Position numbers and translations under genes: made by a program. Below are positions 1-57,303 of a stretch of 64,000 bases of DNA, piece after piece. Origin of the DNA: Nymphaea colorata (taxonomy: Eukaryota; Streptophyta; Magnoliopsida; Nymphaeales; Nymphaeaceae); NCBI RefSeq assembly GCF_008831285.2, contig NC_045139.1, positions 36,119,706 to 36,183,705 of the forward strand, in the 5' to 3' direction. The notes under the pieces were generated by a model. That model saw nothing but the letters and a program-made list of their open reading frames with translations. It made no database searches and had not been told where the DNA came from. Within the stretch, counting starts at the first letter, position 1. Every line of letters starts with the position of its first letter.

Positions 1-88
1 AGACTCTTAGAATTCTGAAAATGAGATTATAAATAGAGGCCGTGCAAACCATTTTGGCTACGGCTTCTTCTCCTCAGTTTCTTCTTGT

Positions 89-120
<32 letters not shown>

Positions 121-171
121 CTGCGTGAGTGCTGTTTTCGGGTTACAGATATTGGTGCTACATTTCTATCA
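1..171 (+). repeat. 5' LTR, 3' portion (U3 end/R/U5)
   Basis: Matches 4816-4988. Contains a TATA box (TATAAATA at 28-35), a CT microsatellite at 96-120 and the terminal CA at 170-171 immediately before the primer site. Confidence 0.95.
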
Positions 172-183
172 TGGTATCAGAGC
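172..183 (+). other. Primer binding site for initiator Met tRNA
   Basis: TGGTATCAGAGC directly follows the LTR end. It is the usual plant copia primer site, complementary to the 3' end of initiator tRNA-Met. Confidence 0.93.
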
Positions 184-391
184 GCCAGGTTACGTTATCT
201 CTACCAAACGAAATGCCCAAACAGGTCTGATCTGGTTAGAACTCTTTTCTCATCTTGTCTCTATCCTGAATTTACTTTTCTCTTGCGCAATTCTTGTTCC
301 TTTTTCTTCTTGCTTACCAAGGACACATCTTGTTATATCGTGTCTTCTTTCCCTCTCATCTTCTACCTATATACCATTCCTTTCTGCTGTC

Positions 392-1282
392 ATGGAAAAC
401 CTTTCGCATTCTGGCATGTCCTCAAGTTTTCTTCCTCACCTTATTACCGAAAAACTCAACCATGAGAATTATCTGATCTGGAAAAGGCAAATCATGCCTT
501 TCATAAGAAGTCAAGGCCTCTTTGGACATCTCGATGGTTCAACAAAGGCTCCACCAATATCCGTCTTACAGGAAATAAAAAATGAGGCAGGAGAAGTTAT
601 TGCTGTTCATGAAGACAACAATCCTGAACATGCTATGTGGATGAGACGTGATCAAAGTCTGGTTGCGTATATTTTGTCCACTTTATCTCAACAAGTGTTA
701 CTTTCAGTTTCTGATGATTGTACTGCAGAAGAATTATGGGAAACCCTTGCTAATACCTTTTCCCAAATATCAGAAGCTCGAATTATGTACTTAAAGAAAG
801 AATTTCAGAATTTGAGCAAAGGTTCAACGTCTATCATGGATTATTTGGGGCGTATTAAGGCCGTCGCAGACCAACTTGCTGCCTCAGGGAATAACATTTC
901 TGATAAGGAAAATGTGCAGCAAACCTTGAATGGACTTGGGCATGATTATCATGCTTTTATTACAGCTCTTGAGGTCCTTCCTGTTCTGCCTTCCTTCAAC
1001 GAACTACAAGGTAAACTTCTCCAACATGAAATGAATATGAAAAGAGTCATTGAAAGGACTGATCAAGGGAACTCCCAAAATGTGTTGGCTATGAATGTAA
1101 AGTTTGGTAAGAGCCATGGGAACTCCAACCATGGTGGTCGTGGCATTCTACCAACACCACATAACCAAGGTATGTCTCCTTTGGATACTTCAAGAAAAAT
1201 ACCAATTTGTTTTCAGTGCAACAAGAAAGGACACATGAAGGCACAATGTTGGTTTAATCCTCAAAATAAAAACAAAGGGTAA
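392..1282 (+). CDS. copia gag polyprotein segment
   Basis: A 296-residue reading frame from the ATG at 392, chosen because family gag proteins start near here; the frame is open upstream to 125 but that part looks like leader. The N-terminal region carries the LNHENYLIWKRQI type motif of copia gag (DUF4219/UBN2 class), followed by the UBN2 helical region. A CX2CX4HX4C zinc knuckle (CFQCNKKGHMKAQC) lies near the C-terminus. Gag packages the element RNA into virus-like particles. It ends with TAA at 1280-1282, while the sequence that normally follows the knuckle continues in the -1 frame and leads straight into pol. Gag and pol are therefore separate frames here, by programmed shift or by a recent indel. 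Confidence 0.93.
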   Translation: MENLSHSGMSSSFLPHLITEKLNHENYLIWKRQIMPFIRSQGLFGHLDGSTKAPPISVLQEIKNEAGEVIAVHEDNNPEHAMWMRRDQSLVAYILSTLSQQVLLSVSDDCTAEELWETLANTFSQISEARIMYLKKEFQNLSKGSTSIMDYLGRIKAVADQLAASGNNISDKENVQQTLNGLGHDYHAFITALEVLPVLPSFNELQGKLLQHEMNMKRVIERTDQGNSQNVLAMNVKFGKSHGNSNHGGRGILPTPHNQGMSPLDTSRKIPICFQCNKKGHMKAQCWFNPQNKNKG

Positions 1283-1332
1283 GACATGATTATAAACAAG
1301 GAGGACAAAGTTCTAAATCCACCGCTGAAGAT

Positions 1333-4300
1333 ATGCAACAGCTATTGATGGCCGCATTCTCAAAGGTGACTATAAAGCAAAATGAGCAGGGAGAATGGTT
1401 CTTGGATTCAGGTGCAGCTACCCATGTGACAGGAAATGCAGGTAAATTGACTAACTTATCCCCTCATTACGGTAGAAGTTGCATTATAACAGGTGATGGA
1501 AAATCTCATCCTATTACACATATTGGAAATGCACATATTCCATTGTCATCCTCGTCTCTATCACTGTCTAATGTTGTTCTTGCTCCCAATATCAAAAAGA
1601 ACATCATATCCATTTCTAAACTCATTGATGATACAAGCTCTTCTGTTGAATTCACACCTTCTTCTGTCTATGTCAAGGACCTCCAAACGAAGAAAATGTT
1701 CGCTAGAGGGGAGCGTCAAGGGAATATGTACGTCCTCAAGGAATGTCTACCCAAGGATTCATCCACTTTTGATATAGGATTGAAGACATTTTCTCTTTCT
1801 CATAATGCGTCATCAGTGCCAAGTTCTTGCCATTTTCAATCAAAAGTAAGGGGCCCTAACCAATTTTTGGAGTCTGATTTGTGGCATAGTCGGCTAGGAC
1901 ACTGTGGTCGACATTTCATTGAAAAACTTGTCACAGATAGTCTCATTCCAAGATCAAGTTTACCTCTTACTTCAAGTGTCAAAAAATGTTCAAGTTGTGG
2001 ACTTTGTAAGAGTCATGTTTTACCTTTCCATAATATAAATCAAAGGGCTTCCAAACCTTTTGAAACTATTTTTTCTGATGTATGGGGGCCAGCCCCTATT
2101 GATTCCATGTCTGGGTCAAGATATTATGTCTTATTCATTGACTCTTACTCACGTTTCACCTGGATTTACTTCATGAAACACAAATCAGAAGTACCTCACA
2201 TATTTCGAAACTTCTATGCCATGATTCAAACTAAATTTTCATCCAATGTGGTGCATTTTCAATGTGATGGAGGGGGAGAATATTCCTCGCTTGATTTTAT
2301 TGAATTTCTACGTGAAAAAGGGATAACTAGACAAATTTCCTGCCCTTACACACCACAACAAAATGGTGTAGTTGAGCGGAAACATCGACATATAGTTGAA
2401 AGCGCCATGAGCATGATGCATGATACTAATGTGCCCATTTCCTTGTGGACTGAAGCCTTCCATACTGCTGTATACATAATAAATTGTTTGCCTATGACAC
2501 TCTTGATGTCTAAATCGCCATATTTTACACTCTTAGGCAAACAACCTGATTACAAGAACTTGAAGGTTTTTGGTTGTGTATGCTATGTTCACGTTGATGC
2601 TGCCTTGAGGAACAAGTTTCAAGACAAAGCTATTCAATGTAGATTCGTTGGATATGCTGATGAATATAAAGGTTTTCGATGCTATGATCCAACAACTAAA
2701 CGTATCAAAACTTCAAGAAATGTCATTATGGCTCAAAGTGAAAATCAAGAAGATCCAACACAGTCATCAAGTCATCACGAAAACAATAATGAACAGAGCA
2801 ACGATGCACATCGGTATTCGGGTCTTATCTACAGTCGACGACTAAGGGACAGAGATGCTCACAGTGAAGAAGACAACATGCCCCACCTTAGAAGATCCCA
2901 ACGCATTCGTCATCCCATTCACAGGTGGGTTAGCTATGATTCTTTATCACTTGATTTTCAGTTATTCATGGCAAAAATTGGCAAGGAGGAAGAACCTACT
3001 TCATTTGATCAAGCATCAAAATCACATCATTGGAGAAAGGCTATGAAAGAAGAAATGGATGCCTTGCATGAATGTGGAACATGGGAGATCGTTCCGAGGC
3101 CACACGAAAAGAACGTAGTGGGCTCCAAATGGGTATACAAAATTAAATACAAACCTGACGGCAGCATAGAAAGACACAAAGCAAGGTTAGTAGCAAAAGG
3201 GTTTACACAACAATATGGAGAAGATTATGATGAGACATTCAGCCCTGTGATCAAAATGGGAACAATTCGCGTGATTATATCATTGGCAGTTGAATATGGA
3301 TGGAGACTACATCAAATGGACGTGAAGAATGCTTTTCTTCATGGTGATTTAAGGGAGGAAGTATATATGGAACAACCTCCAGGATACACGAAAGGAGACT
3401 CTCATGCATGGGTTTGCAAACTAAGAAAATCTATTTATGGACTTAAACAGGCCTCACGTTCGTGGTTTGACAGTTTCTCTTGCAAGATTCAAGAATGTGG
3501 TTTTCGGAGATGTCCTCTAGATCACTCTCTTTTCATTTATCGAAAGGAAAACATATTTACTTTACTTCTTATATATGTTGATGATATTGTTATCACAGGC
3601 AATTCAGAAAAACACATAGAAGAAGCTAAAGTTTTGATGATGCAAAACTTCAAAATGAAAGAGCTTGGTGATTTACGATTCTTTCTTGGAGTGGAGATTG
3701 ATAGGCACAATAATCGCCTCACATTGACACAACAGAAATACACGTTGGATTTGTTGAAAAAGTCAGGTATGTCTGATTGTAAGCCTGTTGGAACTCCTAG
3801 TGTTCTAAATCAAAGACTAAGTGCTCAAGATGGGGAGTTATATGAAGATCCTACGCAATATCGAAGTATTGTTGGGGCACTTCAATATCTTACATTTACT
3901 AGACCAGATATTATATATCCTGTGAATCAAGTATCCCAATTTATGCATGCACCTAGAGATACTCACATGGATGCTGTCAAAAGAATATTAAGATATCTTA
4001 AAGGGACAGCAGGAGATGGCTTAGTTTATGGTAAGAGTGAAAATATAACTACTGGACATCAACTTATGACATTCACAGATGCAGATTGGGCTGGAGATCC
4101 CGATCAAAGAAAGTCCATTTTTGGTTTTTGTATTTTCATTGGACGTAATCTTGTGTCTTGGAGTTGTCGAAAGCAAAAGGCAGTAGCAAGATCCAGCACT
4201 GAAGCTGAATACAGATGCATGGCTGCAGGTACTGCTGAAGTTACATGGGTTAGACATTTGCTAGAAGACATTGGAGAAAAGATTAAAACATCAATGTTAA

Positions 4301-4551
4301 TGTGCGATAATCAAAGCGCTATTAACATTGCCTTTAATCCCGTACAACATGGTCGAACAAAGCACATTGAAATTGATCAACACTTTGTTAGACAAAAGGT
4401 GGAAGACAAGGAAATTCAGCTTATTTATGTTCGTACAGATGAACAAGTTGCAGACTTATTTACAAAAGGATTAACAAAGGAACGATTCTGGTTTCTAAAA
4501 GGCAAGTTGTACATGGTGCAAAACCATGCACAACTTGAGGGAGGGTGTTAA
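1333..4551 (+). CDS. copia pol polyprotein (protease, integrase, RT, RNase H)
   Basis: A 1,072-residue frame from the first ATG at 1333; the same frame is open back to about 1279, and the residues there look like the continuation of gag. Domains in order: aspartic protease (FLDSGAATHV, about residues 23-32), GAG-pre-integrase (LWHSRLGH), integrase core with D (FSDVWGP), D (QCDGGGEYSS) and E (PQQNGVVERKH), RT with KWVYKIKYKPDG, RHKARLVAKGF, QMDVKNAFLHGDL and the catalytic YVDD, then RNase H with TDADWAGDPDQRKS and STEAEYR. No internal stop is present, so the enzymes look intact. The stop codon overlaps the first bases of the 3' LTR. The protein reverse-transcribes and integrates the element. 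Confidence 0.95.
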   Translation: MQQLLMAAFSKVTIKQNEQGEWFLDSGAATHVTGNAGKLTNLSPHYGRSCIITGDGKSHPITHIGNAHIPLSSSSLSLSNVVLAPNIKKNIISISKLIDDTSSSVEFTPSSVYVKDLQTKKMFARGERQGNMYVLKECLPKDSSTFDIGLKTFSLSHNASSVPSSCHFQSKVRGPNQFLESDLWHSRLGHCGRHFIEKLVTDSLIPRSSLPLTSSVKKCSSCGLCKSHVLPFHNINQRASKPFETIFSDVWGPAPIDSMSGSRYYVLFIDSYSRFTWIYFMKHKSEVPHIFRNFYAMIQTKFSSNVVHFQCDGGGEYSSLDFIEFLREKGITRQISCPYTPQQNGVVERKHRHIVESAMSMMHDTNVPISLWTEAFHTAVYIINCLPMTLLMSKSPYFTLLGKQPDYKNLKVFGCVCYVHVDAALRNKFQDKAIQCRFVGYADEYKGFRCYDPTTKRIKTSRNVIMAQSENQEDPTQSSSHHENNNEQSNDAHRYSGLIYSRRLRDRDAHSEEDNMPHLRRSQRIRHPIHRWVSYDSLSLDFQLFMAKIGKEEEPTSFDQASKSHHWRKAMKEEMDALHECGTWEIVPRPHEKNVVGSKWVYKIKYKPDGSIERHKARLVAKGFTQQYGEDYDETFSPVIKMGTIRVIISLAVEYGWRLHQMDVKNAFLHGDLREEVYMEQPPGYTKGDSHAWVCKLRKSIYGLKQASRSWFDSFSCKIQECGFRRCPLDHSLFIYRKENIFTLLLIYVDDIVITGNSEKHIEEAKVLMMQNFKMKELGDLRFFLGVEIDRHNNRLTLTQQKYTLDLLKKSGMSDCKPVGTPSVLNQRLSAQDGELYEDPTQYRSIVGALQYLTFTRPDIIYPVNQVSQFMHAPRDTHMDAVKRILRYLKGTAGDGLVYGKSENITTGHQLMTFTDADWAGDPDQRKSIFGFCIFIGRNLVSWSCRKQKAVARSSTEAEYRCMAAGTAEVTWVRHLLEDIGEKIKTSMLMCDNQSAINIAFNPVQHGRTKHIEIDQHFVRQKVEDKEIQLIYVRTDEQVADLFTKGLTKERFWFLKGKLYMVQNHAQLEGGC
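4533..4545 (+). other. Polypurine tract
   Basis: A purine-rich stretch (GAGGGAGGG core) immediately before the TGTTA start of the 3' LTR; the standard plus-strand primer position. Confidence 0.8.
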
Positions 4552-20720: not shown

Positions 20721-21830
20721 TGAGTGTAAACATAAAAAATGAGTAGAAATCAATATAACTAAATGATTAGAAAGTGATTTTGAATTGCGTGAAATATGAA
20801 ATATGATGCCAAATTTTTATAATAAATGTAAGGAATAATGTCCAAAAAACCAGGGTTATTAAATATCCAACTTGGTGTTTGCACTTTTTTTTTAAAATAT
20901 AATTCAAAAGTGTATAAAAATGATAAAATATGTGTCAGCTGGTAATATCAATTATTAGCAATATTAAATATTGTGTTGGTAAAGAAGTCAACGTGCCCCA
21001 AAGAGCCAGGAGGTAAGGATAAGTCTCCAATTAAAAAAGTGTAATTTATTACTTATGAACAACTAACCGTCGCTAATTAAGGGAGTTCCGGCAACACAGA
21101 CAAAGACAACAATATACCTTGTATTTCCAACCATACCTAATTAAAATGACCAAATTGTCCCTACCAATTAAATGCAATAATTGCTTTTTATAAAGGCAAA
21201 AATAAACTAAAAAAAAATTACCTCTATAAAATTACCAAAATGCTCGTCTGGTAAAAAGTGTGAATATGTCGTCGTGTGATTTAGCTACAGAACATGAAAG
21301 CGCCTTCCTACCTACGACCCTCTCTCTATTCATGATATACAATTACTAGTAAGGGATTTTTTTTTTCGAAAGTAATTTTTGAATCTTAGAAGCGCGACAT
21401 CAATTCAATTCAGTAGTAACCGATTCAAGAGTGTCACATTTATTCTTAATTATTTTAAAGTAGTTTTTTAATATAATTTTAGTTAAAAAAAAATATTTTT
21501 TAGTTTTTTGGTCAATTAAGGACTCTAAAACTGATTTAGAAGGCAAAAGTTGGAAACATTTTTGGTTTTCGGGCTGTTTGTTATTTCACTTAAAATGGAA
21601 AACTCGTTTAGTTGTCAACTTTAGCTATGTAATAAGGCAAAAAGTGAGGCAGGTATATGTAATTATCTACGAAGTTGGAACGTATACGAATGGACGTGAT
21701 CCGTTAGTCCTTTTTAGAATTTTTATCAATTTCGGGTGGGAATTTTGAAATTTCTGCTATTTTTGAGAACCCCCTAAAAAGTCCCAAAACCTCCGACGAG
21801 TCCATCGTTTCGTTCGGTATCTCCAAAGAA
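20721..21830. other. Intergenic, upstream of RING-CH gene
   Basis: AT-rich, no coding resemblance. The final hundred bases before 21912 are purine-rich and probably hold the promoter and 5' UTR; no clear TATA box was seen. Confidence 0.4.
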
Positions 21831-21911
21831 ACCATCCAAAGGATAGAAAAAGGGAGCAGAAAAGCGGGGGAGGTCAAAGCGAGGGAAAGAGAGGAGCAGA
21901 AGGAGAAGAAG

Positions 21912-24900
21912 ATGGTGGATGATTTCATGGTGTACGTCGACCGGCTGATATCCTCGGCTTGCTTCGAGAGCGCGAACGAGGGGCTCCTCCATGGCCATGG
22001 CAGCGCACAGATGCCTCATGGGAGAGAAGGATTCCTGCTGAGCAACAATGGTTGCAATGGTGGTGGTGGCGGCGGTTGTAATAGTGGTGAGGCTCAATGC
22101 CACGTTGGGGAGGGTTGTTCCAAGAAGGAGGCGCTTATAGAATGTAGGATATGTCAGGAGGAAGACGAAGAGAAGGAGTTGGAGGCTCCTTGCGCTTGTA
22201 ACGGCACTCTGAAGGTACGTGTGTCTCGCATTTTCGGAAGAAATTCGGGGTTTTTTGGCTCTTTGTTGATGGTCTTCTTTTGTGGTTTTGGTTTTCATGT
22301 GTTCTCTTTTGTCCCCTGAAAAATCATGCTTTCCCATTCGCTGGTGACCGTCTGGTGTGGATTTGAGCGATATTATGCTTCATGTCGTGCGAAAATCGTG
22401 ATTTTTTCTGTGCTGGTGGTGATCTTTCGGCGTTTATTTTGCTTTTTCTGAACTTGAGCAATGTGCATTTCTTGGAGAGTCGTGTAGTTCTTTATGCGGT
22501 TTCTGTGGCTTCGCTGCGAACATTTCTTCCTTTTGGAGTTTGCTTTCTTGAGTTGTCTTTTGTGGTGGACAGAGATGGTCGTTGTTGTTCTGAAAGGTTT
22601 TTTTTTTTTTTTTAGTCTTTTGCAAATGGACGTTGACTGGTCATGCTATTCCATCCTCTGTATCCTTCTTCGAGTTTGTGCTTGCGGTCTGTTCTGCGTA
22701 GTTGTTTGTCCCTTCGTGACTTGTGGCATCGTTTGCTTTTTGAGTTTTATGCTCATTTCCTGTATCTGATTCCCGTTCCGCTCTCTTGTTTTGCCTGTAT
22801 TGCATTTTTCATTGGTCTGTGGGGTTTCTGCGTTTTTTTGTTTCCATTTTTAGGCAAACCAACCAACTTGAGTCCTGTCGTTTGTTGGGAGTTTATGGCT
22901 TTTCTGTCGGAAAGATTGTTTGTCGATTTCCTGTTCATTGACCATTAGCATTGTGGCCTCTGTTATTCTACCTCGTACAGACGGGCATATGTTTCCAAGT
23001 GAAACTCCTTGCTTTACTCTTAACATATTTCCTTACATAGGGTTTGTTCTTTAATGGCTTCAACTTTGAACATAGAATGTTCATGTTTAGATTCAATTAA
23101 GCTTCTGGATTTTTCTACTGCAGAGCTTTGTTTGGGTTATTGACGAATCATTCTTTTGGTGCTGGAAGAGACTTGATGGCACCAGTAGTTTCCAAAGATG
23201 ACACTTAACATGCTATCTGTTTCTGAATGCATTTCTTGATCACTTCTTTTGTTATTTTCATCCAAAATTTTGTTATGCATTTCTTGATCTCTTCTTTTGT
23301 TATTTTCATCCAAAATTTTGTTATGCTTATCATTTTTTTGGAACTCTTATCCATCCTATTGTACGTTTCTTGTGTCAAGGTTTACTTGTGTTAGTTGCAT
23401 TATTGCAAGGTACTGTTGTTCCAGTCATGTTTGTGCTTTTCTTGTGGTTCCCCTGCTGTTGTGGACCAGCCTAATATTTAGTTTTTCAGTTTTCAGATCT
23501 TTCTAACTTATAGTTTTTACAATGTATGTCCCTATTAAATGGAAGATTTGGCTTTGGCTTGCTGCAGTTTGCTCACAGAAAATGTATTCAGAGATGGTGC
23601 AACAAGAAGGGTGATATTACTTGTGAGATTTGCAATCAGGTACGGTATTAGATGCAAAAAGGAAAAAAAGAAAAAGGTTGTCTATGTAACAATGCATAAT
23701 AGTTGGTTTTTTCCCAATGTTGGAAACATTGGATTCTGAATCATATTGGAATCCTTAAATCCTACACATATTAGCGTACTGATTGGCCTGTGTGATACTA
23801 CAACAGGCTATTTTATGTTTTCCTCTTTAACAACTAATTATCAAATATTTTAAAATGTTTAATACAACAAAAAATGCTTATTATCCCTCTCATGTCAGAC
23901 AGTTGTCAAGGAAGTTAAAAAATTGGATAACTGAAATGCCAGTGAAAAGGCCAGTAAAATATAATTTTTGCTGATTGGAGATTCATCCTTAAATCAAGTG
24001 AAGAAAAGATGATTTACCAACTTACAATTTTGTGTTGTTTCAATGTTTCAAACTCTAGAAGGCACTCTCAAGTTCGAGATTTAAAATGATTTCTGGTTTT
24101 TTTAAGTGTCAAGAGTCCAACAGTCCATATTGTCTTGTTGGGCTAAGATAGTCTTTCACTTGGAATTTTTTGTGCACAAATATTGGTTGAATTTAGTTCT
24201 GAATGTATAGAATATCCAAATTCCTTCAGATTCTTACAGGCTTAGCTGTAAGGTCCTGATGGCTAGTTTCTAGGATAAGGGGAAAACACCGGACTTCTTC
24301 CATACCCAAAGGGCACTTTCTTCCTCGTTTATTTTTTGTACCTAAGGTACAATTTTTGTGTTCATGTATGCATGTCTTTATTGTTCTTTATGCATGTGCG
24401 TGCACAATGTAAGTCAAATAAGAACCTGAATGCATGTGTACACATGTGCCTAAATGTTAGTGTGCGCTGTCAGCCTGCTTGCAAAAAATTCCCTGCTATA
24501 AAATCCGTTAATTATTTTTTTAGCCTCCTTTAAATCAACTTCCAAGTTTAGTTGTATATGATGCTTGTATTCAGATTTGACTTGTTTTTTTCATTCTCAC
24601 CAATATCTACAATCACTATCTTGTATTTAGAAAATGACTGCCAAATTTCATTCCCATGTATGTGCTCATTACACTTTGTTCATGCATTCAGTTAAACAAT
24701 TTCCCCAAAAATGCTTTGTGCGAGATTAATATGTACATGGAGCATGGTACGAAAGTGTTGTAGGGTGGTGCCTGTTAGTTCTTGTGGTTGGTTGAAATGG
24801 ACTCTGTAAATCATGATAAACCGTGGAATCCTAGCAAATGCTGTGGGTCTTGTTTCACATGTGAAATGTTGCAATGATTTGGTAGAAGTATTCTTTGTTC

Positions 24901-37919: not shown

Positions 37920-40900
37920 TCAGATTGGACCGATTCCAACCGAAATCGGGCTTCTAACATGGTGCACACCATCCGACCAATTCAACCACCCAAACACAAA
38001 ACCATGAGGAGAACCTTTCTTAGTTTTGACAGTCACTGTGAATTTCTTCTCTTCACCGATCCTCTCAAATTTCAAACTTTGTGGTCTCACTGAAACCAAA
38101 ATTTCTGGTGGCGAGTCGATGCTGGCTGTGTATGTTCTGGGCTTCCCAACATTCTTCACGATTCTGGAAATTGTCTTTGTTCCCTCGAGATTGGAGATGG
38201 TGATTGAAGGATAATTCAAGTCTGTAACCTCTGGAACACGTACAGAACATGAGTAAGATCTTCCGGCAACTAAGAAGATCTTCTTCTTGTTATAACCAAT
38301 AGCACACAGGAAGTTGAGGTAATCTGTCGCGTTAATGTCATAAACCAGGCCAGGATCCAAAGCCCCGTTGGGATGAAGATGCCCAGATCCATAGTCCAAT
38401 GGCGTTGCCACTGATTTAGGTCCATTTGTAATTGGCTTCTTTAGGTTGTCCTGCTGGATTGCTTCAGAATTCAAAGAAAAGACAAAATAGAGCATATTCA
38501 TTATGTCGTATTAAGGAAACCGAATGCCAAATGCATAGCAATAGTAACTGATTTTTCATAACAGGAAATTGGCAGCAGGTCACTAACTTAAAGCTTCTTT
38601 CTAGCACAAATTACTGTGCTTGAACAATTCACATTCTATGAGAATAAGAAAGTTGTGATCCATACCTGTAGTCATGATTGCTGACCTGATTGCAGCTGGG
38701 CTCCAGTCAGGGTGAGCATTCTTGAGGAGGCCAACAATGCCGGAAACATGTGGGCATGACATGGATGTACCTGACAGTAGAGTAAAATTAGACCGGCGCT
38801 TGTCAAAGTTATATTCTGATGGCGACAACAACGGATTGTAGGACGCAAGGATTTCCACTCCTGGCGCTGTAATATCAGGCTTCATTAAGAGGAAGAAAAA
38901 CACTCTAGTTAGTACTCAACACAATATAGATTCTAGATGCATTCACAATTTTATGACATAACATGGATGCAAACCTTGAGGATATCTGGCGTGATAGAGT
39001 TGAACCCTCGTGATGAGAAAAAGGCCATTACTGGAGCAGGTGTTGTCCGCAGCTTTGTAATTGAAGGGCCTACATATGCGACTGCCATCCTGCAAATGTG
39101 TTCACCCTCTCTAATTCAGAGTATAGCCTTATCAAGAAAGGTTAAAATTCATTCTTCCTCAAGAGAGACGGACAGTTAAGGTTAAACAGGAAGAGTCATG
39201 CAAGCCCTCTCTAATTCAGAGTGTTCACCCATATGTAAACTTTTAAATTCATTATCTGTGAACTCTGCATCTTAAGCTAACACAGCTTAGTAATTAATGG
39301 AGCAATGCTTTGGAAGTTTAACAAGCAGAGGTTGTTGATCTATGCAAACCAGCTCAATGCACAGAAAAGCTGACCTAAATTCTGTTTCATGCAATTTCTA
39401 ACAAAATTTTGGCAGCTCTATCCATCAAGCATAGTTTCCATGAGCCATTTCTGGCATGGATGGTTCGGGATTATAAGATTCGTGAGGTTTAGTTCTGGTG
39501 GCATGACCCTTCTAAACTTCAACCATGATATTTCAAATGTCATCAACTACGCTATACAATATTCAAAATAAAATCATGCAACATACTTTCTAGAATTAAT
39601 GTAGGCGAAGAGCTCCTTGGAATCATTGAGCCTAAGCTGAGTAGCTGGAAGAACGTAAGGTTCAGGATTGACAACATTGCCTGTATACTCGTCGTTACAC
39701 ACAATCATCCCGACACCTCCAGCATCTTTAACTTCAATGCCCTTCAGTATATTTTCATAAGCAGAATCACTGAGGCAAGTTATGATCTTGCCCTTGACCT
39801 TTTTGGGATCAAGAGTACCTGTTCGACAGTAGTTTCTGCACAAATTAAGTAGAAAAAGAAAAGCCAAATTATAATGAATAGAAGCTTCTGTATGATGTTA
39901 AATGCATGAACCAATAAATTAACCATTGCCATGCATCAAAGGCCTTTGATTCAATAGATTCATCAGGCTTTTTCTGTTGTTATCTGCGATCATTTATGTT
40001 GTTCTTAGTTTTTCCACAGTAATAAGGATCGTCTGTTAAGTAATGCACAGCAAACTTACGCAGAGAAGGGCTTGGCATTTGCAGCTCTGACATCCGCTCC
40101 TTTCGCCAATGGATATAATTTTTTCGCCAATGAACTTGAAGAAGAAAGGCTTGCTCCCTAAGATGTTAAAAAACTAGATAAATTCTGCAGCTCTACAAAA
40201 AAACGATGTTAAAGACAGTACTAAGTCTTCTTAGCAAGGACAAACCCAAAAAGAAAAAGCGGTATAGCTCGAGTAAGGATGTTTCTATCTCTACTATTAG
40301 AAACTAATATATCATGAACTCAATTTTGCTGCCTGTACTTGGTTCTGATGCTGATACTAGTTGACCAAATCCTTTCGTGGTTCATGAAATGCTAATCACG
40401 TTCATACTACCAGGTGCTGCAAAAGATTGATAGTATTTGAAATTTAGAAGATGAAATTCTCAGCAGAAGTGGAAATGCCAAGTCATATGCTATGGGTTGT
40501 TCTCTCAATTTCTACACAGTTATTACTTCTTTAACATTTTCAAAACTATCGGGTTACATCCAACTTCTTTTTCGTCAAATTAGGATTCCCAATTCAGATA
40601 GCAGTAAGAAAAAAGAGAAACACTAAAAGGGAAATGTGCAAGACCAACCCGAAGAGTCTTATTGTTGCCAAGAGAAAGATAAGAAACGAACTCCCTGTCC
40701 AAGGTGCTAGCAGCAACGGTAATCAACCACGGAGCCACATTAGACACTGACTGCAGCATCGGGCCATCGTTGCCGGCGGAGGCGACCACCGTGATCCTTC
40801 GGCTGACGGCGTGGAACGAGCCGATTGCGATGGCGTCGTTGAAGTAGTCATGAGGTGAGCCGCCGAGCGAAAGGGTGATGACGTCGACGCCGTCCCTGAT

Positions 40901-42398
40901 CGCAGAGTCGAAAGCAGCCAATATGTCAGCATCAAAACACTGGCGATCCCAGCAGACCTTGTAGGTCGCGAGACGAGCCCTTGGAGAGCCGCCCTTCGCC
41001 GTTCCGTTAGCCGCGCCGAATATGCTCGCGTTCGGCACGAAGCTGCCTGCAGCTGTAGACGCGGTGTGAGTGCCATGACCTTCCGAATCTCGAGCAGACC
41101 TGCCGTCCTTTGGGTGCTCACCGGCGCCGTTGACGTAGCCCTTGTCAAAGTAGCGTGCGCCGATCAGCTTTCTGTAGTCCAGCCGCCATTGGAGACGTTC
41201 AATTACGGCCCGAGTACCTTAGCTTGTTGCAAAATATTGGAAGAAAAGGAGAGGGAAATCCGAAGTTGGGCGGCAAACCTGTTGCATTTAACACCATTCA
41301 CATCGGTCGCATTCTGGCATACTCCTTTCCACCTTGCAGGCACAGGTCCGAGACCTTCATCACTAAAGCTCTCTGACTCTGGCCAAACTCCTGCTACCAC
41401 CAAGATCAGATGTCAAAAATTACAGGGCTTTTTAGTATTTCCTCAGGTACATAGGCCTACTCCTGATGCCACCGAGATCAGATTTCAACAATTGCAGGAA
41501 ATTTTCATTATTCCCTTACATGTGCAGGCCCAACTCCTCCCACCACCAAGATGGGATGTCAAAGGTGGCAGGAAATTTTCATTATTTAATAGCCTCAGGA
41601 CATCGAATCATAAGCTTTTTGACGAAGTATGAAACCTGTGGAGGAGAAATTAAACGATGCAAAAATCCTCTTCTCTATAAACTTCATGAAATTTAAGAGA
41701 ACGTCTTGTCCATATATAAAAATATGATGAAGACGAAGCATGATCCTTTGGTCCATCCTTTTAAAGTCTTGCATGCAACTCAACATTAAGATGGTTGTAG
41801 TGACGACGATCCATCTAATACAAAAAAGTCAGTCAAAGGAAAGCATACAAGAACAGTACTAGTACCAGCAGCACCGGCATTAGTGTCGAGGATGCCAATT
41901 GATGGATTGTGATTGTAGGTCTACATCCGAATTTGATTAGTTGGGTTCGGAAAAGATTGGATCCAGTTACCATTTTGAATTTGGTATATTATTTTAGCAT
42001 CCGAGTCCAAATCCTATCTAAATGATAGATTTTGAGATAGGCGAATACAGTTCCATCCTCAGAAAATCCGAACTAATACAAATCCGAATAGTTTTGATCA
42101 GATCCAATTCCATATTCCCAACTAAATCAGCCATGAAAAAGAAAAATCTGAGCAAGAGTTGCAGACGAGGTACGCTAACTATATATAATCAAAATCACAC
42201 TGTTTGAAATTAAAGGGTAGAAGTAATCCCACCTGTGTCGAAGTGTCCAATAATTACATCTTCACCGTAGTGGCCTTTCTCCCACAATGAATTCGGCGTA
42301 GTCTTTCCTTCACTCTCCAGGCCCAGAAACTCCCATGAACGAGTTGTATGGAGTTGATGCTCCTTGTTGGGGAACACAGACACAACACCAGGATGCTC

Positions 42399-54649: not shown

Positions 54650-55532
54650 GTATAATTGCTTGTCTATGCTCCATTTCAAGTTAGTTCTCTGCTTTTCAAG
54701 TCTCGTTGTCTTGGCAGTCTTTTGACTGTCTGTATAGCTAAATTGTCTTCAAAACGCTGTGTAACTGTATGTAGGCAAACTGAAAATTTATGGGTTGTTG
54801 ATTTCCTGCTATAAGCAACGTGACATGGTTACGGGACCTGTTTATCTAAACCATCAAAACCCTGAAGCACGTTAGCAGGTTTGACATGGTCATTTAAAGT
54901 GGAAAAAATTGAATGCAATGAGAGCCACTGAGAATTGCATGGGCAACAATGACAAGTTATAGCAGTTCTGTTTTAGAAATATTATTCAATTTTGGAAATT
55001 CTCTCTCCTTTTCACAAATTAGACCATGATTTTTCGTTATATCTTCCTAGCTTTTCTACATCTCTGCTTTTATGCGTATTTCTCTGAAAGCCCTAGCAAA
55101 CATTTGATATTGTTTAGATTATATTCCAAATCTCATGATTTTCTTGGGATTTGTGTAACTTAAAAAAATCATAAAGAAGTGCTAATGCCTCCATAAACCA
55201 TTGTCAGGTGCTCATTAATATCAATTTAGTGACTTTTTTTTAGCTACATATATTCTTTAAAATTTAAACATCTAGTGACATCATGCACAGGAAGCATTGA
55301 ACTCCCCGATATATCGACACGTACATGTGTATATATATGCATATAATATATATAGAAAAAAGAGAAAGCAAGATACCCTTTCATAAACTCATGAACGTAC
55401 AAGTAGATTGAGAGTGTGAAAGTAACGGCTCGTACTTCTCTAGGTAGTAAGCATTTTGAGAGCGATTTCATCTCTATGGTCAACAACAATGGGAACAGTT
55501 TGCCATTTCATCTTTCTGTTCTAAAACCATGG
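54650..55532. other. Intergenic, 3' of copy A and 3' of the TIR locus
   Basis: AT-rich, with no convincing match to the missing C-terminal exon of the DUF4504-like gene. The last part is the 3' UTR of the minus-strand TIR locus. Confidence 0.45.
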
Positions 55533-55817
55533 CTACATGGGGCGTTTGGTGTTGGGGCTGGCCTTCATCATCCCATCAAGCTGCAACGAATAGCGCTCCT
55601 GCTGTTCTCTGATCAGCTGGTCAAATTGCTGCAAGTATTCTTCCTCCAGTCGATTCAATTGCTTTCCTGTTGTCTGCCATGTTTCTTCTTGACTCGTGTT
55701 TGTTTGTGTTCTAATATCAGGGTTGGGCCTCATCTGTCGACCAATTTGCGCCATGAGCTGCTCCTGTTGTTGCTTTATAAGCTGGTCAAATTGCTTCCTG
55801 TAGATCTGCTGCTGTTG

Positions 55818-56159
55818 CTTCCATTGATCATCTGCGGCCTCCATTGCCGGTCTCCGGTGAGGTTCATCCCCAACGAAGCAGCTACCCTTCATCTCCTCAG
55901 CAAATTGCAAGAGGAACTGCTCGCTCTGTTGCTCTACCACCTTTTGAAGGGCTTCAATTCCGGGAGTTTTCCAAGTTTGGACTCCAAACAAAGGCTTGGA
56001 GTTCAGCTCCTCAGCAAGTTGCATCAAATACTGCTCGTGCTGCTGCTCTGCCACCTTCTCCAATGCTTGCATTCCCGGAGAATATTGTTGAGTTGGTGTC
56101 CCTAACACAGGCATCTGCCTCATGTCGTCGGCAAATTTCATCAGCCACTGCTCTTGCTG
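55818..56159 (-). repeat. Three exact-period 38-residue (114-bp) coding repeats
   Basis: Units begin QQEQWLMKFADDM, QQHEQYLMQLAEEL and QQSEQFLLQFAEEM, 38 residues apart. The first two share PG(M/I)xALxKVxE at their ends; the third ends PAMEAADDQWK. QQQQIYRKQFDQL follows at the next 38-residue step. Beyond it a second repeat class of 55 residues occurs (YRKQFDQLIKQQQEQ and YLQQFDQLIREQQER). The pattern suggests amphipathic helices that oligomerise. Confidence 0.88.
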
Positions 56160-56639
56160 CCGCTTCATCTGGTTTTGGATGGCCATGTACCCTGCACTGC
56201 TGCCACTCATACCAGCCAAGTTGTAGGGTCCATAGATGAGTTCTTGCCAAACTTGATCAACAATCAAGCGGATCAGTGCCGCCTCATTGCTGCCCTTGTA
56301 AAGGAACACAAGCAAAATACTGAATCAGAATTAGATTGATTCGTTTCTTACTGAAATCAACAACAGAAGCATGGAGTGGGCCTGAGATCTCAGCAGATTA
56401 ATGGGCAGTTGGGCATAACGCTTGCGGATCGAACACCCAACTGCGCCTTTAAGACTCACCCATTAGCAACGTTTCTGAGATCGTAACCAGAGATACCAGC
56501 AGCTTCCCGCAAAGCCTTCCTCCACTCCATCACCGTGCTCCTGTCGAAGCGTAGTTGGTAGCTCTGGAAGGCTGCCTCGAAAGTACCTCTCTGATGCTGG
56601 ACGTCGGAAGGATCGACGTGGTAGAAGATGGGGATGATC

Positions 56640-57181
56640 TTCTTCCTGAACTCTATCATCTTGGCCAGCTCCATACCATTAGGCACCACCTGGAGTCCGC
56701 ATAGGACGGAGACAGTATGGGTATGCAGACGGCCGACCTCTCGATCGCACTGACTATCCGCTCTTTGATATTATTTCCCCTCTCCAAGCTCTCCTCGTCG
56801 ATGAAAGACTTGATGCCTCTCTGATACAGAGCTTCATGGAGGTGTCCTGCGAAGCCTTTCCGAGTGTCTTCCCCTCTGAAACTGAGAAACACTTCAAACT
56901 CTATGGAAGATTCTTCCTGAACTCTATCATCTTGGCCAGCTCCATACCATTAGGCACCACCTGGAGTCCGCATAGGACGGAGACAGTATGGGTATGCAGA
57001 CGGCCGACCTCTCGATCGCACTGACTATCCGCTCTTTGATATTATTTCCCCTCTCCAAGCTCTCCTCGTCGATGAAAGACTTGATGCCTCTCTGATACAG
57101 AGCTTCATGGAGGTGTCCTGCGAAGCCTTTCCGAGTGTCTTCCCCTCTGAAACTGAGAAACACTTCAAACTCTATGGAAGA
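56640..57181 (-). repeat. 271-bp tandem duplication inside the TIR exon
   Basis: 56640-56910 and 56911-57181 appear identical by eye. The period is not a multiple of three, so the second copy is in a different frame. Near-identity means a very recent event or an assembly artefact. Confidence 0.95.
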
Positions 57182-57303
57182 CGAAGAAGATGAACCTGAT
57201 GATGATAATGATGACATGGGTGACAGATTTATGATAAAGCTATGTGAGAAGAAGAAGAAGAAGAAGGAGAAGAGTGGCAGTGGAAGAGAAGCAGTCTGAT
57301 TGG

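Follow-up and report, generated by a model that had tools for sequence, protein, structure and literature searches.

A candidate TIR-X gene with a Gln/Glu-rich helical tail in Nymphaea colorata, likely a pseudogene in the copy analysed

A locus consisting of a TIR exon and a Gln/Glu-rich repeat exon was analysed on the minus strand of the window, by which is meant the whole stretch of 64,000 nucleotides of Nymphaea colorata DNA (G000:C2:36119706-36183705 in a genome of 408 Mb). The reading favoured here, with moderate confidence, is that of a two-exon TIR-X gene with a helical X region, of which the window copy is likely a pseudogene and in whose relatives the tail would multimerise TIR domains. 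The data support the view of a TIR gene that left the NB-ARC path for a Gln/Glu-rich helical tail, and by sequence comparison the locus is probably one of a small TIR-X group in this plant genome. What is new is the X region built of regular amphipathic Gln/Glu-rich units; the TIR-X class itself was already known. The other readings weighed below are not mutually exclusive.

Organization of the repeat exon

Exon 2 was mapped to 55533..56289 on the minus strand (251 residues and the stop codon). It lies in an open frame of 263 codons at 55536-56324, closed by a stop at 55533-55535. Intron 1 occupies 56290..56459 on the same strand (170 bp, phase 2, donor GTGAGT, acceptor CAG). The reading frame is kept by the CAG acceptor at 56292-56290, which places the first base of exon 2 at 56289. 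A splice at 56460/56319, as given in the first-pass annotation, was replaced by 56290/56289; 56319 breaks the frame, and the AG immediately upstream of the CAG at 56292-56290 does not preserve it either. With the CAG acceptor, the predicted join reads ...RNVANG-NEAALIRLIVDQVWQEL..., which is the usual passage from TIR to NB-ARC (compare L006, an ordinary TNL).

The TIR-to-NB-ARC linker helix and a short spacer take up 56199..56288 (minus strand; NEAALIRLIVDQVWQEL), with the NEAxL start that is also seen in exon 2 of the TNL L006 and in exon 2 of the C9 genes described below. There follow, all on the minus strand, repeat unit 1 (56082..56198, 39 residues), unit 2 (55968..56081, 38 residues) and unit 3 (55854..55967, 38 residues), as delimited by self-comparison, then unit 4 (55662..55826, 55 residues, with QFDQLIK) and unit 5 (55536..55661, with QFDQLIR), which runs to the C terminus. 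The order described earlier for this exon, a linker to NB-ARC, then Gln/Glu-rich repeats, then the clean stop at 55533-55535, was thus recovered.

An ungapped comparison of exon 2 with itself peaked at an offset of 38 residues (score 122), followed by offsets of 55 (76) and 39 (69), while the highest score in 300 shuffled versions was 53 and the 95% point of their maxima was 42. The proposed Gln/Glu-rich repeat domain was confirmed as 3 + 2 units with scores exceeding those of the shuffled controls. Successive spacings are 39, 38, 53 and 55, units 1-3 being spaced by 39 and 38 and units 4-5 by 55, and a QQxEQ-type core is common to all five. Units 1-3 had been described as three exact 38-residue units (QQxEQ-aromatic-L...PGxxALxKV); they are inexact, with a spacing of 39/38 and identities to unit 2 of 45% (unit 3) and 32% (unit 1). 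The two 55-residue QFDQLI units of the same description hold as far as the spacing of 55 is concerned, with its score of 76, but their tie to units 1-3 lies near the edge of chance (scores 47, 45, 42 and 41, which lie close to, or just over, the 95% point and remain below the shuffle maximum). As judged from sequence, the five units are likely all related to one another, the kinship of units 4-5 with units 1-3 being less firm because the linking scores lie only around the 95% shuffle point.

Between the repeat units, dN was 0.42-0.65 and dS 0.81-1.24, with dN < dS in 5 of 5 comparisons. Differences among repeat pairs were not significantly uneven over the codon positions (46, 37 and 50 of 112 each, p = 0.37). 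AlphaFold2, applied to the single sequence, modelled the linker and every unit as a helix each. This agrees with the earlier suggestion that the repeats form helices, but at low confidence: the arrangement of the helices is not to be trusted because the mean pLDDT of 46.8 is too low. The hydrophobic moment peaked at 92, 114, 93, 93 and 118 degrees in units 1-5, as values of a scan over 80-180 degrees without shuffled control.

Following Pfam analysis of exon 2, the best E values were 0.016 and 0.13, both matches falling under their cut-offs, and neither NB-ARC nor LRR was found. NCBIfam gave 0 matches, and phmmer with the repeats recovered 0 of 177635 PDB sequences at E<=1. Among IMG/VR contigs, a protein query gave 4 pattern matches and a three-unit alignment query 320 matches, and GTDB genome contigs gave 22 matches; none of these was confirmed. 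In the plant's own genome, exon 2 was found at 1 place as protein (E<=0.001) and at 1 place as DNA, the best candidates being scored in both searches; two looser matches to the repeats (E 1.3 and 2.4) were judged to be chance. An antisense ORF at 55407-56105 (232 aa) was rejected as a gene by reasoning only, no splice or domain context being seen; it is open because the CAG/CAA-rich sense codons keep the opposite strand open.

TIR exons in the genome and the C9 paralogues

Searched with the TIR tail, the genome gave at least 149 places, one of them the window itself, with 150 out of 188 candidates being scored; the best 29 other TIR exons were surveyed for NB-ARC using a P-loop pattern and inspection by eye. 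NB-ARC follows the TIR exon in 26/29 of these best-matching exons, the exceptions being L007 (C9a), L008 (C9b) and L010. Fifteen of the 26 were obtained from one survey, fourteen by the P-loop pattern and L030 by a variant motif. Longer loci revealed NB-ARC for L011, L012, L014 and L016 (that of L012 about 6 kb downstream, where it is uncertain that the same gene is concerned), and it was also found after L017, L019, L021, L022, L023 (with a frame disruption), L026 and L034. Around the window gene itself, the 3.2 kb of sequence in L005 contained no P-loop pattern.

The third exception, L010/L038 (G000:C11:16803000-16812999), has a TIR without NB-ARC and an acidic repeat tail, EVAEDGRENGGG, resembling the C-terminal tail of the TNL L039. 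It was rejected as a relative of the window gene on account of this L039-like tail and, by sequence, is probably a deletion derivative. At two further TIR places of about 4 kb each (L054, L055), no Q-rich exon was seen by eye; more members of the TIR-helical-tail group may exist. A very large cluster of TIR exons was noted at G000:C2:1.7-5.7 Mb, on the window's contig and about 30 Mb off.

C9a and C9b are adjoining tandem copies, with DNA identities of 88, 93 and 90% in three blocks, and their TIR tails are 60% and 57% identical to that of the window. In C9b, the TIR exon is complete (Pfam TIR, E=9.3e-40), and exon 2 is Q/E-rich, 107 residues long (NEAKLVSMVVERVSREL...KKQLDAFLKQIHQMKMQHLLNHMAP) and terminated by a stop; Pfam detected neither NB-ARC nor LRR in it. 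A paralogue with an unbroken TIR exon had been proposed as a check in the first-pass annotation, and C9b, with an intact TIR and an open Q/E-rich exon 2, is such a gene. With the exon boundaries marked by a slash, the splice sites are AATGG/GTGAGC ... CAG/CAATGA in C9a and C9b and AATGG/GTGAGT ... CAG/CAATGA in the window, in the same phase; the introns of C9a and C9b measure 1318 and 1422 bp, that of the window being much shorter at 170 bp.

Exon 2 of C9a (L036, G000:C9:17650758-17651095) is similar to that of C9b and carries a 5-nt frame disruption; the 5-nt disruptions of the window copy lie elsewhere in the gene. Such changes therefore seem to occur in the window/C9 group. Between C9a and C9b, dN/dS came to 0.50 in the TIR, on 7.5 synonymous and 13.5 remaining changes; over 103 codons of exon 2 it was 0.34, on 6 synonymous and 9 remaining changes. 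All of these counts are small. The introns were 88% identical over the aligned part.

The C9b tail (L050, G000:C9:17656372-17656692) passed the Pfam cut-off for IFT46_B_C (PF12317; E=1.1e-5, 25.8 versus 22.2 bits). The match was absent from the reversed tail and from 8/8 shuffled versions, from the 66-residue fragment of C9a and, at E<=1, from window exon 2. IFT46 is a ciliary family that, to our knowledge, is not expected in a flowering plant. The match may reflect coiled-coil-like similarity, with more than that possible. A PDB search with the C9b tail gave weak matches to 4 sequences (E 0.13 to 0.75), and NCBIfam gave two matches to C9b exon 2 far under cut-off (E 0.08 and 0.93).

Relationship between the window and C9 tails

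Similarity between the C9b tail and the window exon was compared with that of shuffled C9b tails. The observed similarity was reached by 4/1000 shuffles with the linker and 16/1000 without it; by part, by 0/1000 for the N part and 15/1000 for the C part. When the five window units were combined into a profile, the observed score was reached by 23 of the 1884 shuffles scored (2000 made). The best-aligned pairs are LQAIEEKLRQQKDPYLMEL / MQALEKVAEQQHEQYLMQL and KKQLDAFLKQ / RKQFDQLIKQ. These figures suggest, and no more than suggest, a kinship between the C9b tail and the repeats of the window. About two units were counted in C9b, as judged from the tail alignments, and five in the window copy.

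In the TIR tree, the window, C9a and C9b were placed together with L006 and L014 in one weak group (92/60), and only 8% of the bootstrap trees united the three alone. Following a reciprocal TIR search from C9b, L006 (183 bits) and the window (100 and 77 bits, in two pieces) were about equally close. On these sequence comparisons, the window and C9 genes may or may not share one origin.

The strongest competing reading is one of independent origins: TNLs would have been truncated separately in the window gene and in C9a/C9b, and their Q-rich tails would then have converged on a helical, Q/E-rich form; we give it an appreciable probability, short of even. The tail similarity is weak, and a search with C9b exon 2, which recovered only the C9a and C9b places in the genome (best candidates scored), missed the window exon even at E<=10. 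The TIR tree likewise does not separate the three from the TNL L006. The weak tie between units 4-5 and units 1-3 and the differing intron lengths speak slightly against a single well-defined family. Against independent origins, the alignment pairs the parts of the tails in the same order, the splice phase is shared, and NB-ARC is missing after just 3/29 of the best-matching other TIR exons.

Less probable, and in our view unlikely, is a pure decay product: a TNL would have lost its NB-ARC-LRR, the splice would run into unrelated Q-rich sequence, and the repeats would have no joint role with the TIR. The TIR exon is indeed broken, the genome offers no clear relative of window exon 2, and comparison of L010/L038 with L039 indicates that deletion derivatives do arise here. 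Exon 2 is, however, open over 251 codons with repeats at the protein level, and C9b is an intact gene of similar layout and the same splice phase.

Damage to the window TIR exon

The TIR exon spans 56460..57217 (minus strand), from the ATG at 57217 to the donor, and is disrupted. Pfam TIR (PF01582) was matched by the head ORF (E=1.1e-22) and by the tail ORF (E=4.2e-13), the two lying in different frames. Inside the exon, a perfect tandem duplication of 271 bp was found, with copy 1 at 56911..57181 and copy 2 at 56640..56910 (both minus strand). Tandem Repeats Finder reported a 271-bp unit in two copies at 100%, and direct comparison confirmed identical copies. By comparison with the C9b TIR, a 5-nt frame disruption was located ahead of the WCLxEL motif at approximately 56672..56682 (minus strand), and the same disruption recurs in the other copy, 271 bp upstream, at about 56943-56953 (minus strand). 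The ORF from ATG 57217 is a 96-residue peptide ending in CLMVWSWPR; it stops there because the 5-nt disruption is present in each 271-bp copy.

The Glu of WCLxEL, which we take to be the catalytic Glu of plant TIRs, is out of frame in the window copy, the frame being lost directly before the motif, and is in frame in C9a and C9b. A conserved catalytic glutamate is required (PMC9806590). A splice omitting one 271-bp copy was considered as a means to restore the TIR and rejected: among GT/AG sites chosen by eye, the in-frame option loses the Glu motif and lacks a pyrimidine tract. Through duplication and frame disruption, continuous coding through TIR and X is absent in the window copy; it is present in C9b at the sequence level. 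Between the TIRs of the window and C9b, dN was 0.26-0.30 and dS 0.66-0.90, and the TIR was therefore constrained during much of its history.

By its sequence as assembled, the TIR exon is unable to make a TIR, and the window copy is very probably non-functional. Given the damaged TIR exon, a pseudogene is the most likely status of this copy, to which an assembly error may have been added. Annotation of the locus as a TIR-linked protein therefore stands for the exon join, which is in frame, but not for the TIR exon, which the 271-bp duplication and the 5-nt disruptions make unusable.

That the gene is intact in the plant, the duplication and possibly also the frame disruption being errors of assembly, appears distinctly unlikely. 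The 271-bp copies are 100% identical and the exon has no other near copy, its DNA giving 28 matches in total in its own genome, the window itself and then 71% at best (best candidates scored). A duplication alone nevertheless fails to explain a 5-nt frame disruption in both copies, and C9a exon 2 has a 5-nt frame disruption as well.

Known classes and proposed function

TIR-X (TX) is a named class of TIR proteins without NBS and LRR, and the role of its X region is described as unclear (PMC11943168). Members such as Arabidopsis TIRP At5g44900, TX14 and TX21 likewise combine a TNL-type TIR with an undefined region that is neither NB-ARC nor LRR; in the present case X consists of Q/E-rich helical units, a repeat not described in the available part of that source (PMC11943168), and the window TIR exon is broken. 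By Pfam, the TIR domain is present in the head and tail pieces of the window and in C9b, and NB-ARC and LRR are absent. The architecture was accordingly less unfamiliar than first noted: TX is already a class in its own right (PMC11943168), and the regular Q/E-rich units of X are what remains unusual. Among the papers listed from an open-licence library, no title or opening of an abstract dealt with a plant TIR carrying a Gln-rich repeat tail, which does not prove absence.

With TNL immune receptors, represented by L006, the window gene has in common the TIR exon, an intron at the same site and in the same phase, and the linker helix that opens exon 2; it differs from them in having no P-loop after the linker and, by Pfam, no NB-ARC or LRR in exon 2. 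The TIR-only proteins RBA1/AtTX1 are likewise short and without an effector-sensing domain (PMC9806590; PMC10972746), whereas a long helical tail is added here.

For the favoured TIR-X reading, the following mechanism is proposed. Exon 1 is a TNL-type TIR, and exon 2, as its sequence shows, retains the TNL splice site and linker helix, after which Q/E-rich amphipathic helices stand where NB-ARC and LRR would be. In intact relatives, C9b for one, multimerisation of the helical tail would most likely bring TIR domains together; the clustered TIRs could then form an NADase centre without an NB-ARC resistosome, and signalling would proceed through the EDS1 route of other plant TIR proteins. Clustering of TIRs by a non-TIR module is known from bacterial TIR proteins with coiled-coil domains and from SARM1 with its SAM domains, which offer a possible parallel. 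Self-association would most likely be the job of the tail, because defence is activated when TIR domains are induced to come close together (PMC7414095) and condensation activates TIR proteins (PMC10972746).

Instead of multimerising TIRs, the tail could act as a decoy or offer a binding platform to some partner, be it a pathogen effector or a host coiled-coil protein. This would fit the integrated non-canonical domains found in NLRs (PMC10720953) and the IFT46_B_C match of the C9b tail, over cut-off where reversed and 8 shuffled versions are not, but it is rather improbable given that window exon 2 and the C9a fragment show no such match and that the four PDB matches to the C9b tail are weak.

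A broader extension of the TIR-X reading, which we regard as doubtful, is that a lineage of plant TIRs swapped the NB-ARC oligomerisation motor for a helix array of variable length, the length tuning self-assembly and autonomous signalling. A regular-repeat X, together with an apparently intact C9b beside the exon-2-disrupted C9a, would open a direct way to ask if X serves as a device for oligomerisation. For its part, the window copy points mainly to gain and loss of such genes.

Other features of the window

At gathering thresholds, Rfam models had 0 matches in the window. A Copia-type LTR retrotransposon was seen by its gag and pol reading frames at 11-4548 (plus strand), and a subtilase-type gene in several pieces (Peptidase_S8, PA, fn3_6) at 37923-41218 (minus strand). 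A reading frame at 21708-22316 (plus strand) matched the RING-variant domain (RINGv) with E=9.6e-6.
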